DNA from: Saccharicrinis carchari
GTDB taxonomy: Bacteria > Bacteroidota > Bacteroidia > Bacteroidales > Marinilabiliaceae
Direction: 5' to 3'
DNA: 64,000 nt
Assembly (NCBI RefSeq): GCF_900182605.1
Contig: NZ_FXTB01000007.1
Coordinates: 1-64,000 of the forward strand
Shown here in pieces: positions 60,481 to 63,898 of this stretch. The translations under genes were made by a program, and so were the position numbers. The stretch's first letter is position 1; each line of letters starts with the position of its first letter. The notes below the pieces were generated by a model. It saw only the letters and a program-made list of their open reading frames with translations. It searched no databases and had not been told where the DNA came from.

Positions 60481-60601
60481 AGAGCCTAAGAATTGCTGTT
60501 CGTTGACAACAAAAAAAACCGGTAAGGCCAAAAATTTTAGCCCATCTCCCATTCATAAAAAATCCCTACAAATAGTGATTACCTATTTCTATTTTATCCG
60601 G

Positions 60602-60609
60602 TATATTTG
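60602..60609 (+). promoter_or_regulatory. Candidate -7 promoter box of the hemerythrin-LuxR operon
   Basis: TATATTTG fits TAnnTTTG, 88 bases upstream of the hemerythrin gene. Confidence 0.4.
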
Positions 60610-60696
60610 ATGTCAAATAAGCTAGCCTTTATATATACAATACAATTAGCTTAAAACCATACACTTGAATTATTAAGAGCATTAAAAGGTGAAGAC

Positions 60697-61449
60697 ATGA
60701 ACAAAAACTTACCGTTTACCTCGCAAACCAAAATGGCGGATGTAATACATATGGATTACAGACTTATCCCTATTATCGGGAGGTTTGGCATCGATTATGG
60801 TTTCAGCAATAAAACCGTTTTTGAAGTTTGTAAACAACACGACATCAATGTTTGGTTTTTTTTGGCCATTATCAACTCCTATCATAATCACAAGTACTTC
60901 CCCGAAAAACAACTTCAGAATTTTAATGTGCAACTCATCATCCATTATTTATCGCGGACACATGCATATTATTTAAATAGTAAGGTGCCCGATATAGAGG
61001 GCTGTATTGAGGAAATGAAAAAGCAATCAACAGACGCTAATTTTCAAAACGTAAACCTGTTGAGTAATTTTTTCGAACAATACAAAGTGGAGCTCAAAAA
61101 GCACTTAGACAAAGAGGATTACGTGGTATTCCCTTATGTTATTTCACTGGAACAGGCTTTGGAATCGAAACAAATAGACGCAGAATTGATACAGCGGGTT
61201 AAAGAACAACCGATTGAAGAGTACGAGCGAAGCCACGAGAATATGGAAGTGAAATTGAGCGATCTTAAAAATTTAATTATCCGCCACCTCCCTCCTGTAT
61301 TATGCAAGGATTCGTGCCAAAAACTCCTTACCGAATTATTTAGACTGGAAGCCGATTTGGAAAACCACTCACGAATAGAAGACAACGTTTTGATACCAAA
61401 AGTAAAACTGTTAGAACAAAAAATACTTGATGCAAGTGGAACCAAATGA
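60697..61449 (+). CDS. Hemerythrin-domain protein with DUF542 (RIC/YtfE-like)
   Basis: A 250-residue protein. Residues about 1-60 form a DUF542/ScdA_N-like domain (TSQTKMADVIHMDYRLIPII and FEVCKQHDIN with the conserved Cys). Residues about 75-240 form a hemerythrin-like four-helix bundle with candidate diiron ligands in QLIIHYLSRTHAYYLN, ELKKHLDKEDYVVFPYV, SHENMEVKL and NHSRIEDNVLIPK (His and Glu). YtfE/ScdA/RIC proteins repair iron-sulfur clusters after nitrosative or oxidative damage, and related proteins sense O2 or NO. Its 3' end overlaps the next gene by 20 bases, so the two are translated together and probably work together. Confidence 0.85.
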   Translation: MNKNLPFTSQTKMADVIHMDYRLIPIIGRFGIDYGFSNKTVFEVCKQHDINVWFFLAIINSYHNHKYFPEKQLQNFNVQLIIHYLSRTHAYYLNSKVPDIEGCIEEMKKQSTDANFQNVNLLSNFFEQYKVELKKHLDKEDYVVFPYVISLEQALESKQIDAELIQRVKEQPIEEYERSHENMEVKLSDLKNLIIRHLPPVLCKDSCQKLLTELFRLEADLENHSRIEDNVLIPKVKLLEQKILDASGTK

Positions 61450-62050
61450 AGCCAAAAAAATAAAAATAGCCATTGCAGCGAAACAATTTTTATATCGGCT
61501 GGGCATAAAAACCATTATTAGCGTAATCGGTGTTGAACCTGAGCTATACGAAACAAACGATTACGATAATATCACACAATGCTTAAAACATCATCCCGAT
61601 ATTGAATACCTAATTATAAATCAAGATATTTTACCACTCGCCAAAGAGAAATCTCTGCAATCACTTAAAGAATTATGTCCTTGCGGAAAATTAATGGTGA
61701 TAGGGGATGCGTCGATGAAACACTGTTCGTGCGCCAGCTTTATGCATAATATCGACAACCAAAAAGATGTACTCGAAAAATTTCAGGAATTCTTTTTTGA
61801 ACCGGACAAAAACCCAATTGAACATGAAAACACCACACTCTTAAGCGACCGGGAGATAGAAGTATTAACAGCAGTAGCTATGGGGTACTCAAACAAAGAA
61901 ATTGCCGAAAAATTGTTTATAAGCTCCAATACTGTTATCACCCACCGAAAAAATATAACAGAAAAATTAGGGATTAAAACCATTGCCGGCCTAACCGTGT
62001 ATGCCATTATAAATAATCTTATTGATCCGGAGACTGTTAAAAGCAAATAG
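61430..62050 (+). CDS. LuxR-family regulator with cysteine-containing pseudo-receiver domain
   Basis: A 206-residue DNA-binding protein. Residues about 140-200 are a GerE/LuxR helix-turn-helix (LSDREIEVLTAVAMGYSNKE then IAEKLFISSNTVITHRKNIT). Residues 10-125 align with a response-regulator receiver, but the acidic pocket is gone (IAAK in place of VDD) and the phosphoacceptor Asp position reads IIN (N64). Instead there are C83 and C85 (CPC) and C99 and C101 (CSC), with H98. I infer a redox, metal or iron-sulfur/NO sensor rather than a kinase target. The start is ATG 61430 (a TTG precedes it); the gene overlaps the hemerythrin gene. Confidence 0.8.
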   Translation: MQVEPNEAKKIKIAIAAKQFLYRLGIKTIISVIGVEPELYETNDYDNITQCLKHHPDIEYLIINQDILPLAKEKSLQSLKELCPCGKLMVIGDASMKHCSCASFMHNIDNQKDVLEKFQEFFFEPDKNPIEHENTTLLSDREIEVLTAVAMGYSNKEIAEKLFISSNTVITHRKNITEKLGIKTIAGLTVYAIINNLIDPETVKSK

Positions 62051-62070: not shown

Positions 62071-62343
62071 ATGAAAAAAATTGACCTCAACGAATACTGC
62101 CCCTGCTGCGGATACAACTCTTTTGATCCGAAAAAAAGACTTGAATTGGAAATATGTCCCATTTGCTTTTGGGAGGACGATCCCCTGCAATTTAACGATC
62201 CCCATCTCGAATTCAGTGGCAATCTGGTATCGCTTAGCCAGGCACAACAAAATTATACTCACTCTGGTGCTAGCCACGAAGATATGAAGCGTTACTGCCA
62301 AAAACCGGGCGAAAATGCAAAACGAAATCCGGAGTGGTCCTAA
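62071..62343 (+). CDS. CPCC-family cysteine-rich protein
   Basis: A 90-residue protein with the CPCC motif (C10-P-C12-C13 in EYCPCCGYNSF) and a second pair C29/C32 (ICPICFWEDDPLQF), the arrangement of the PF14206 'cysteine-rich CPCC' family, probably zinc-binding. The typical SLSQAQQNYTHSGASHED segment follows. The function is unknown. The frame is open from 62050, but ATG 62071 immediately precedes the family core. It begins 20 bases after the LuxR gene and may be co-transcribed. Confidence 0.85.
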   Translation: MKKIDLNEYCPCCGYNSFDPKKRLELEICPICFWEDDPLQFNDPHLEFSGNLVSLSQAQQNYTHSGASHEDMKRYCQKPGENAKRNPEWS

Positions 62344-62681
62344 ACACCCCCGTACTGATCATCCTACCCTTATATTATTTCTTGCTTCAAAAAAACTAAT
62401 TATCTGCTCGGTCCAATAAAATAAATTACAATAGAGCTAAAGCTCAATACACTCTGGGCACTGTATTCAATAATTCTTATAAGTACAATAACTTAAAATC
62501 TCAATCCGTATTTTATTTTACTACGCATACGCATAGTACTAACACGCGATACCTGCGCTGCTCACTCCCCCACCCTGTACAATTCTCCAGAAAAATCATC
62601 AAAAAATCAGGTGAAACCAATATTTATAGTTGCACGCGATCATATTTTTAACTAATTTGGCAGAATAGCTAAACGAGAATG
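62344..62681. other. Gene-free region upstream of the PerR-like gene
   Basis: AT-rich with no coding frame, tRNA or clear terminator. It ends in the palindromic operator candidate that begins at 62682. Confidence 0.45.
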
Positions 62682-62697
62682 ATTCTTATATAAGAAT
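62682..62697 (+). promoter_or_regulatory. Candidate Per/Fur-box palindrome
   Basis: ATTCTTATATAAGAAT is a perfect 16-base palindrome ending 7 bases before the ATG of the Fur-family gene. It is AT-rich like known Per and Fur boxes and is well placed for autoregulation. Confidence 0.6.
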
Positions 62698-62704
62698 TAG
62701 AAGC

Positions 62705-63130
62705 ATGAGTTATAAACAAAGCGAAATAAGAAATTTGTTATCGGAGGCCGGATTAAAGGTAACCCCCCAAAGGGTGGAAATTTTAAATGCCATATACACT
62801 TTAAAAAACCATCCTACCGCCGAAAAAATTATAGAACATATCCGTAAATCGAATCCCAATATTGCCACAGGTACGGTTTATAAAGTGCTGGATACGCTGG
62901 TACAAAAAAACCTTGTTAAAAGAGTTAAGACCGATCGCGACATCATGCGCTATGATGGAATAACTGAAAACCATCACCATTTATATTGCAGCAAATGCGA
63001 TACAATAGAAGATTATAACGATCCTGAACTGGATCAGTTGCTAAGCGAATATTTTAACAAAAAAAATTTGAAGCACTTTGCAATAGAAGATGTTGTACTT
63101 CAGATACGAGGTACATTTCATAAATGCTAA
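62705..63130 (+). CDS. Fur-family transcriptional regulator, PerR-like
   Basis: A 141-residue regulator. The winged helix (KVTPQRVEILNAIYTLKNHP, TGTVYKVLDTLVQKNLV) precedes the metal sites. Residues matching the regulatory site of B. subtilis PerR are H36, D84, H90, H92 and D103 (RYDGITENHHHLYCSKCDTI, ED), with Asp at the position that is Asp in PerR. The structural zinc site has C95 and C98, but the expected C-terminal CxxC reads FHKC (C141 only). The next gene encodes a peroxiredoxin, supporting a peroxide-sensing role. A palindrome lies just upstream. Confidence 0.85.
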   Translation: MSYKQSEIRNLLSEAGLKVTPQRVEILNAIYTLKNHPTAEKIIEHIRKSNPNIATGTVYKVLDTLVQKNLVKRVKTDRDIMRYDGITENHHHLYCSKCDTIEDYNDPELDQLLSEYFNKKNLKHFAIEDVVLQIRGTFHKC

Positions 63131-63181
63131 TATAAATTCAAACAATAAATTTTTACAACTAACTATTTAACACTATTTGAA

Positions 63182-63898
63182 ATGGAAGAACAAAAATTAG
63201 AACAAGAAGTAATAAGTATGCCACGCATTGGCGACCCGGCACCGGAATTTACTGCAGTAACTACGCAGGGCGATATTAATTTTCCAAAAGATTATGCAGG
63301 CGAATGGGTAATCCTATTTAGCCATCCGGCCGACTTTACACCGGTATGCACCTCAGAGTTTATGACCTTTGCCACCATGGAAGAAAAATTTGCAAAAGCC
63401 AACTGCAAATTGGTGGGGCTTTCTATTGACGGACTTTACAGCCACATTGCCTGGTTGCGTACCATTAAAGAGAAAATTGAATACAAGGGCATGAAAAATG
63501 TTGAAGTGAAATTCCCCTTGATTGAAGATATTTCGATGAACGTAGCCAAAAAGTACGGTATGATTCAACCTAATGAGGATAGCACAAAAGCCGTTAGAGC
63601 GGTATTTTTTATCGATCCCAAAGGAATTATCCGTACCATTATTTATTACCCGCTAAGCTTAGGCCGTAACTTTGAGGAATTGTATCGCGTTGTAATAGCA
63701 CTACAGGCCGCCGATGAATTTGGTGTGGCCACACCAGCCGACTGGCAGCCTGGCGACGATGTAATCGTTAGTCCGGCCGGATCGTGCGGATCGGCTCAGG
63801 AACGCATGGAAGACAGTGCAATTGATTGTAAGGATTGGTTTTTCTGCACCAAAAAACTGGACAAAAATCTTGTGTTAGACAAGATACTTAAGAAGTAA
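63182..63898 (+). CDS. Peroxiredoxin, Prx6/archaeal-type
   Basis: A 238-residue thiol peroxidase. The peroxidatic Cys is C56 in SHPADFTPVCTSEF. The domain continues with VGLSIDGLYSHIAWLRTI, FPLIEDISMNVAKKYGMI and RAVFFIDPKGIIRTIIYYPL. Near the C-terminus, C216 and C222 (DCKDWFFC) match the resolving-Cys spacing (C-x5-C) of archaeal thioredoxin peroxidases such as that of Aeropyrum, so a two-Cys mechanism is likely. It reduces H2O2 and organic peroxides. It lies 51 bases after the PerR-like gene and ends at a terminator. Confidence 0.93.
   Translation: MEEQKLEQEVISMPRIGDPAPEFTAVTTQGDINFPKDYAGEWVILFSHPADFTPVCTSEFMTFATMEEKFAKANCKLVGLSIDGLYSHIAWLRTIKEKIEYKGMKNVEVKFPLIEDISMNVAKKYGMIQPNEDSTKAVRAVFFIDPKGIIRTIIYYPLSLGRNFEELYRVVIALQAADEFGVATPADWQPGDDVIVSPAGSCGSAQERMEDSAIDCKDWFFCTKKLDKNLVLDKILKK

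Follow-up and report, generated by a model that had tools for sequence, protein, structure and literature searches.

A hemerythrin gene coupled to a NarL-type regulator gene in Saccharicrinis carchari and its relatives: a putative iron-linked control system of the CdhR kind

Near the end of the window, as we call the whole 64,000-nucleotide stretch of Saccharicrinis carchari DNA analysed here, a gene for a RIC-like hemerythrin is followed by a gene for a LuxR/NarL-type regulator (Table 1). The two reading frames share 20 bp (61430-61449), the overlap already given in a preliminary description of this DNA. The regulator is read from the ATG at 61430, with a TTG 3 bases upstream as a possible alternative start, and its stop codon ends at 62050. 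The genes downstream of the pair (62071-63898) perhaps form an oxidative-stress neighbourhood.

Table 1. Features of the hemerythrin/regulator locus, with positions in the window.
Feature	Position	Strand	Basis or remark
20-bp NarL-like dyad AATCCCTACAAATAGTGATT, candidate operator, putative autoregulation	60561..60580	+	window-clade conservation, matrix match
TATATTTG, Bacteroidota-type -7 box TAnnTTTG	60602..60609	+	starts 21 bp past the dyad
RIC-like hemerythrin gene, 250 aa, proposed sensor	60697..61449	+	ORF call, profile search, alignment
LuxR/NarL-type regulator gene, 206 aa, pseudo-receiver and GerE HTH	61430..62050	+	ORF call, Pfam, predicted fold
Pseudo-receiver, residues 11-123	61460..61798	+	alignment, predicted fold
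Asn64, at the position of the phospho-accepting Asp	61619-61621	+	alignment of 94 regulators
Cysteines 83/85	61676-61684	+	no conserved set with 99/101
Cysteines 99/101	61724-61732	+	no conserved set with 83/85
GerE helix-turn-helix, residues 137-192	61838..62005	+	PF00196, E 8e-19
Cys_rich_CPCC protein, downstream of the pair	62071-62343		Pfam
Fur-family regulator (PerR-like by position), downstream of the pair	62705-63130		Pfam
Peroxiredoxin, downstream of the pair	63182-63898		Pfam

The window hemerythrin aligns with RIC proteins along almost its full length, and the six di-iron ligands listed for YtfE in a passage of PMC9268430 (H84, H129, E133, H160, H204 and E208) are all present in it, as H89, H136, E140, H180, H224 and E228. 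With YtfE and ScdA it thus shares the N-terminal domain, the hemerythrin fold and the six ligands; unlike them it has no Cys-Cys motif and belongs to a family in which the hemerythrin is linked or fused to an HTH. The columns of the RIC Cys-Cys hold Gly35-Phe36, with G35 found in 85 of 91 aligned hemerythrins and C45 conserved in 89 of them. Its match to the RIC model TIGR03652 (residues 15-236, E 1e-21) scores 77.8 bits, below the cut-off of 204.7, so that neither the motif nor the model places it among RIC proteins proper. The earlier label DUF542 stands in part: the N-terminal portion does align with RIC proteins and ScdA (residues 13-236 for ScdA, E 5e-4), while Pfam ScdA_N/DUF542 gave no match at E values up to 1. 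Of 102 distinct paired hemerythrins 100 retain the complete set of ligands, as do 15 of 17 fused ones (L062, which ends at a contig edge, was excluded, and L167, the same as L017, was counted once). The exceptions are two Parabacteroides pairs (L067 and L087) with five of the six ligands changed, in which the linked regulator persists nonetheless, and two fused proteins that have lost one ligand each and whose genes are still retained.

The regulator carries the GerE HTH ascribed to it, and this domain, together with the fold matches, assigns it to the NarL/FixJ family. Its N-terminal part had no Pfam Response_reg match at E values up to 1. An AlphaFold2 model (mean pLDDT 87.2, pTM 0.60) predicts a receiver-like beta-alpha fold in which helix 4 is unclear, and the top Foldseek matches of the model are VraR, LiaR, VpsT, EvgA and other NarL-type regulators. 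N64 sits at the end of strand 3 in this model, and A16-A17 occupy the place of the acidic pair, which bears out the Asn and the absent acidic pocket noted before; the domain therefore lacks both marks of a phosphorylated two-component receiver. Of the 94 regulators aligned, 11 have Asp at position 64 and 83 another residue (Asn in 47, Ser in 14), suggesting that the system probably works without a histidine kinase, as had been supposed. The family thus has the receiver-like fold, the GerE HTH and a 7-2-7-like dyad in common with NarL, VraR and the atypical-receiver protein VpsT, and differs from NarL/VraR-type regulators in the rarity of Asp64 and in a hemerythrin partner that would replace the kinase. 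Median pairwise identity over 88 pairs was 38% for the hemerythrin, 16% for the receiver and 60% for the HTH, so that conservation is lowest in the receiver; within the HTH, the recognition region hardly varies across the family.

Could the regulator itself sense redox state, NO or an iron-sulfur cluster through C83, C85, C99 and C101, as first proposed? The four cysteines and H98 are present as described (C51 is there too, counting from M1 at 61430), and both CxC pairs precede strands of the predicted fold that we took as neighbours, so that the cysteines may lie close together in the model. Among the window regulator and its 13 nearest relatives (hereafter the window clade, n=14), C83 occurs in nine, C99 in nine, C101 in four and C85 in one, with C83 and C99 together in seven; the regulators of L002, L003 and L004 carry the three cysteines other than C85. 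The full set, however, is confined to the window regulator (1 of 94 aligned rows), since C85 recurs in no other row, while L005, L024 and L028 of the window clade have none of the four and 31 of the 94 regulators have no Cys at all before residue 130. This distribution led us to reject a four-Cys metal or Fe-S site as a conserved mechanism, and given that natural fusions (see below) drop the whole receiver domain, cysteine-based sensing by the regulator appears very unlikely.

We gathered regulators from a scan of 61 genomes and from the contigs of named genomes (the best 80 of 594), obtaining 97 distinct proteins. A hemerythrin gene lies directly upstream of 88 of them (gaps of -107 to +17 bp), three are fused to a hemerythrin, and six have none, one of which (L030) is preceded by the end of a truncated hemerythrin. 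Starting from the hemerythrin instead, a regulator was directly downstream in 29 of the 30 best loci, partly the same loci as in the regulator search, the remaining one being close to the end of its contig. Of 295 genomes from the order, 205 gave a hemerythrin match at E 1e-10, and members of the family were placed in Bacteroidota, Chlorobiota and Ignavibacteriota. The two genes are neighbours in many Bacteroidales of gut and sea, and the window pair, with its adjacent genes, is a hemerythrin/LuxR operon of this kind. The association is thus conserved across genera and families; the preliminary description had named its presence across genera as support for its reading, and a pair peculiar to one strain as refutation. 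Three family regulators without a hemerythrin neighbour (L019, L063 and L064) either adjoin an apparent thyA or follow a dehydrogenase-like gene, in which case a gene for a TonB-like receptor comes one or two places further along.

The 13 regulators closest to that of the window belong to the same 13 loci as the closest hemerythrins. Hemerythrin and receiver also co-vary (Spearman 0.22, reached by none of 300 permutations), but this statistic ignores species relatedness and was for that reason set aside as evidence. Of the sequence sets, A2 omits seven of the 94 regulators and A3 omits 11 of the 88 hemerythrins.

Seventeen proteins are natural fusions in which the hemerythrin is joined straight to the HTH with no receiver between them. 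On the hemerythrin tree the fused state requires at least three changes (gains or losses), three being forced by well-supported branches. These receiver-less fusions suggest that the hemerythrin provides the input and the HTH the output, and that the receiver is dispensable. Coupling and fusions together best fit the alternative that had been offered to cysteine sensing, namely that the regulator receives its signal from the hemerythrin protein, presumably by contact between the two. The RIC-like fold would also suit an ordinary repair enzyme that shares an operon with an unrelated regulator by chance; with the linkage at 88 of 97 regulators, the 17 HTH fusions and the missing RIC Cys-Cys, we regard the probability of such a coincidence as negligible.

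The genus of the window organism has a second, paralogous pair, usually beside a gene read as der. It is complete in six genus mates; G004 has both pairs complete, whereas G001, G003, G005, G007 and G008 have the paralogous pair only, with no window-type ortholog among the matches listed. In the window's genome (G000) and in G002 and G006 the paralogous copy (L022, L103 and L104) has lost its hemerythrin and kept its regulator, a weak hint, from three close relatives and perhaps a single event, that both regulators can make use of the window-type hemerythrin.

We then turned to the promoter of the pair. TAnnTTTG is the -7 promoter consensus of Bacteroidota, and the dyad ahead of the window hemerythrin stands at a fixed distance from such a box. 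Dyad and spacing were first spotted by eye in these same promoters, and the dyad was then tested by pattern: an AATC-type dyad was present in 11 of the 13 window-clade hemerythrin promoters, compared with a chance mean of 0.06 of 13 and a maximum of 2 in 200 shuffle trials. In 8 of 10 window-clade promoters the TAnnTTTG box begins 21 bp from the dyad. The der-type pairs at L008, L009, L010 and L014 have no dyad ahead of their hemerythrin. A perfect 7-2-7 palindrome, TATTTGATGTCAAATA (60604-60619), was also considered as operator and rejected, as it overlaps the -7 box and is not conserved in relatives.

A search for the dyad elsewhere led, in the window's genome and in G004, to the promoters of feoAB, which encodes the principal importer of ferrous iron. 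The pattern AATMMYWANNNNTWRKKATT, shaped on the hemerythrin and feoAB sites, has three perfect places in the whole genome, among them 60561-60580 and the feoAB promoter. A matrix built from the window-clade sites and the first feoAB sites was then applied to feoAB loci. In hemerythrin-bearing genomes it found the dyad at 13 of 15 loci (in part training data) and, outside the training data, at 19 of 29 and 14 of 27, that is, 46 of 71 overall, compared with 0 of 12 scored loci from genomes lacking the family (Fisher 1.9e-5). Removing 13 positives and one miss, nearly all from the window's own family, leaves 33 of 57 versus 0 of 12 (Fisher 1.8e-4). The lacking set comprises 12 of 17 loci, from 20 of 90 lacking genomes: L251, L254, L256, L257 and L259 were left unscored because the feoAB start was missing or partial, L253 has only 69 bp of upstream sequence, and some loci have a guessed gene start. 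On the bearing side G261 was included on a weak hemerythrin match (2e-17), 25 of the 71 loci have no dyad, and several of the 46 positives are weak. When bearing and lacking genomes were compared within the same family (f28, f32 and f58), no feoAB dyad was found in either group and hence no difference, so that taxonomy partly confounds this co-occurrence.

A second matrix, made from 30 feoAB sites alone, was scanned over 72 pair loci (493,110 bases). It gave 33 matches, of which 18 lie behind the regulator (at 1-213 bp), 11 in the hemerythrin promoter and four elsewhere; 29 of 33 thus fall in the promoters that flank the pair. One shuffled set of loci gave 2 matches in all. Not all of these matches are independent, because near-identical relatives are among them (L025/L026; L035, L037, L040 and L054). 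Within the 64-kb window the site at 60561-60580 is the sole match of the feoAB-trained matrix at a score of 12 or more. At a score of 10 the hemerythrin promoter was positive in the window clade for 8 of 13 cases, among fused forms for 7 of 17 and among the rest for 17 of 115. Neighbouring genes had been meant as a control (19 of 236 positive) and were discarded as such, since they contained the pair's own downstream promoters.

The genes behind dyad matches include those for FeoB (L057, L069), a TonB receptor (L087) and OprB-family porins (L058, L100), and the dyad was also found at DUF2023-type loci. At six loci (L039, L043, L051, L052, L059 and L080) it precedes a conserved porin-like gene (IGGYGxVHYNQ) behind the pair, for which the two members checked, L039 and L043, had no Pfam match. 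The Parabacteroides pairs with altered ligands, L067 and L087, keep the dyad just behind the regulator, in L087 ahead of the TonB receptor. Among the neighbours scanned (66 of 71 downstream, 63 of 65 upstream), flavodoxin-type genes account for 8 of 66 downstream genes, and FeoB for 2 of 66 downstream and 2 of 63 upstream.

The 21-bp spacing recurs at these other sites, and it played no part in the matrix. It was found in 32 of 40 feoAB promoters (T[AT]nnTTTG; 40 of the 46 positives were used, omitting L280, L295, L298, L300, L311 and L314) and, with TAnnTTTG, in 9 of the 17 promoters that follow the pair. Counting dyad-to-TAnnTTTG composites on both strands of loci L023-L102 and L217 onwards, some of them overlapping or duplicated, gave 64 at 21 bp and at most seven at each of the other 59 spacings. 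In its 7-2-7 form the core of the dyad, TACCWAN-NN-NTWGGTA, resembles an engineered NarL site, TACCCCTAAAGGGGTA, with the same TACC...GGTA at 16 bp. According to passages of PMC4549865, NarL binds 7-2-7 sites such as that engineered one and occupies -40 to -49 at napF and -38 to -47 at yeaR. The dyad would lie at about the same distance (its centre precedes the first base of the TAnnTTTG box by ~31 bp, which puts it near -43), suggesting the position of an activator.

The dyad could nevertheless be the site of another iron regulator, of which the pair is merely one target. The feoAB dyad does occur in genus mates without the window-type pair (which have a der-type pair), the matched families gave no difference, and effects of PgFur have reportedly been described in P. 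gingivalis. Yet the matrix matches cluster at both promoters flanking the pair, the site has a NarL-like architecture, and none of the 12 scored loci in family-lacking genomes had it. Moreover, passages of two P. gingivalis studies report that a mutant of the Fur orthologue (Har) showed no change in any known iron homeostasis or storage gene and a ~2-fold decrease in hmuY (PMC4222909), and that the feoB1 promoter was not bound by PgMntR (PMC4805248). Taken together, control by a different regulator seems quite unlikely to us.

Operons of the same make-up are already known: the CdhR operon (PG1236-PG1237) of Porphyromonas gingivalis and BT0519-BT0520 of Bacteroides thetaiotaomicron consist, like the window pair, of a hemerythrin-domain gene followed by a gene for a response-regulator-type DNA-binding protein. 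Passages of PMC10434189 report that on iron depletion such operons rise ~7-fold in P. gingivalis and 16- to 20-fold in B. thetaiotaomicron, and mention a fused form, PIN17_RS10465, in Prevotella intermedia; there and in PMC10101095, CdhR is cited as activating the hmu genes for heme uptake. The published induction is that of those operons, to which the window pair is likened by gene make-up and not by sequence identity. Homologous pairs in our set include those of a MAG labelled Bacteroides fragilis (L039) and of Parabacteroides (L067, L087), and the window pair differs from the CdhR-type systems above in its clade, which has 14 members and a half-site of the TMMYWA type. As far as these passages tell, what is new here is the operator, its link to feoAB and the absence of a receiver from the fusions. 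The passages describe neither an operator nor a connection with feoAB and do not prove that the hemerythrin is the sensor, though a binding site could be described in the primary CdhR papers.

Iron induction of like operons, the neighbours at pair loci and the feoAB operator favour iron as the signal, with O2 or NO also conceivable. One might instead suppose that the pair senses NO or nitrosative stress via its hemerythrin, iron genes being secondary targets. A 2023 paper is said to treat CdhR in NO stress. In addition, RIC proteins function in nitrosative stress (passages of PMC9268430). The dyad, however, turned up at loci of feoAB, TonB receptors, porins and the DUF2023 type, and the window's genome holds a separate Cys-Cys RIC beside an Rrf2-type regulator and a NorB-like protein, suggesting that NO defence has its own place; we consider NO as the primary signal unlikely. 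The separate cluster (L137 and L139, on contig C7 of G000 at ~91-94 kb, ~30 kb from the pair) comprises, as read from sequence, an FCCGG-type RIC, the Rrf2-type regulator, a second hemerythrin and the NorB-like protein.

What the computation shows is coupled genes, conserved ligands, fusions, a dyad at fixed spacing and its target genes. From these we lean toward the view that the pair is of the CdhR kind and activates transcription for iron acquisition, gated by the hemerythrin and independently of phosphorylation. The sensor would be the di-iron hemerythrin, its metal state, set by iron availability and perhaps modulated by O2 or NO, determining the activity of the partner regulator, in which the receiver-like domain would serve, unphosphorylated, as a connector or a platform for dimerization. 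The HTH, of the NarL type, would bind the 7-2-7-like inverted repeat, approximately AATMCCWA-N4-TWGGKATT, and under iron shortage the regulator would drive its own operon, feoAB and neighbouring genes for outer-membrane transport.

A broader picture, for which we see roughly even chances, is that in Bacteroidota and neighbouring phyla a di-iron hemerythrin serves as intracellular sensor of iron (or of iron and O2) and gates a kinase-free NarL-type activator that takes the part played by Fur or DtxR. It would do so by binding a single conserved dyad, held 21 bp from the -7 box, ahead of feoAB, its own operon and neighbouring transporter genes, and the system would have been fused more than once into a one-component form, dropping the receiver. 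With a candidate operator, a list of targets and a candidate di-iron sensor at hand, the question of iron control becomes testable by a few experiments.

Genome-wide counts of the dyad pattern are suggestive and were not used as proof. In the window's genome a relaxed pattern was only weakly enriched (46 versus 34 for the control, per strand), a stricter one gave 7+11 matches versus 3+2, and several matches with one mismatch fall inside ORFs. Across six genomes with a window-type pair the stricter pattern gave 18/5, 27/15, 52/16, 31/12, 53/30 and 54/46 (both strands/control), and across five genus mates without it 44/52, 36/21, 43/44, 39/43 and 71/50. The weak enrichment suggests that the regulon in the window's genome may comprise only the pair and feoAB.
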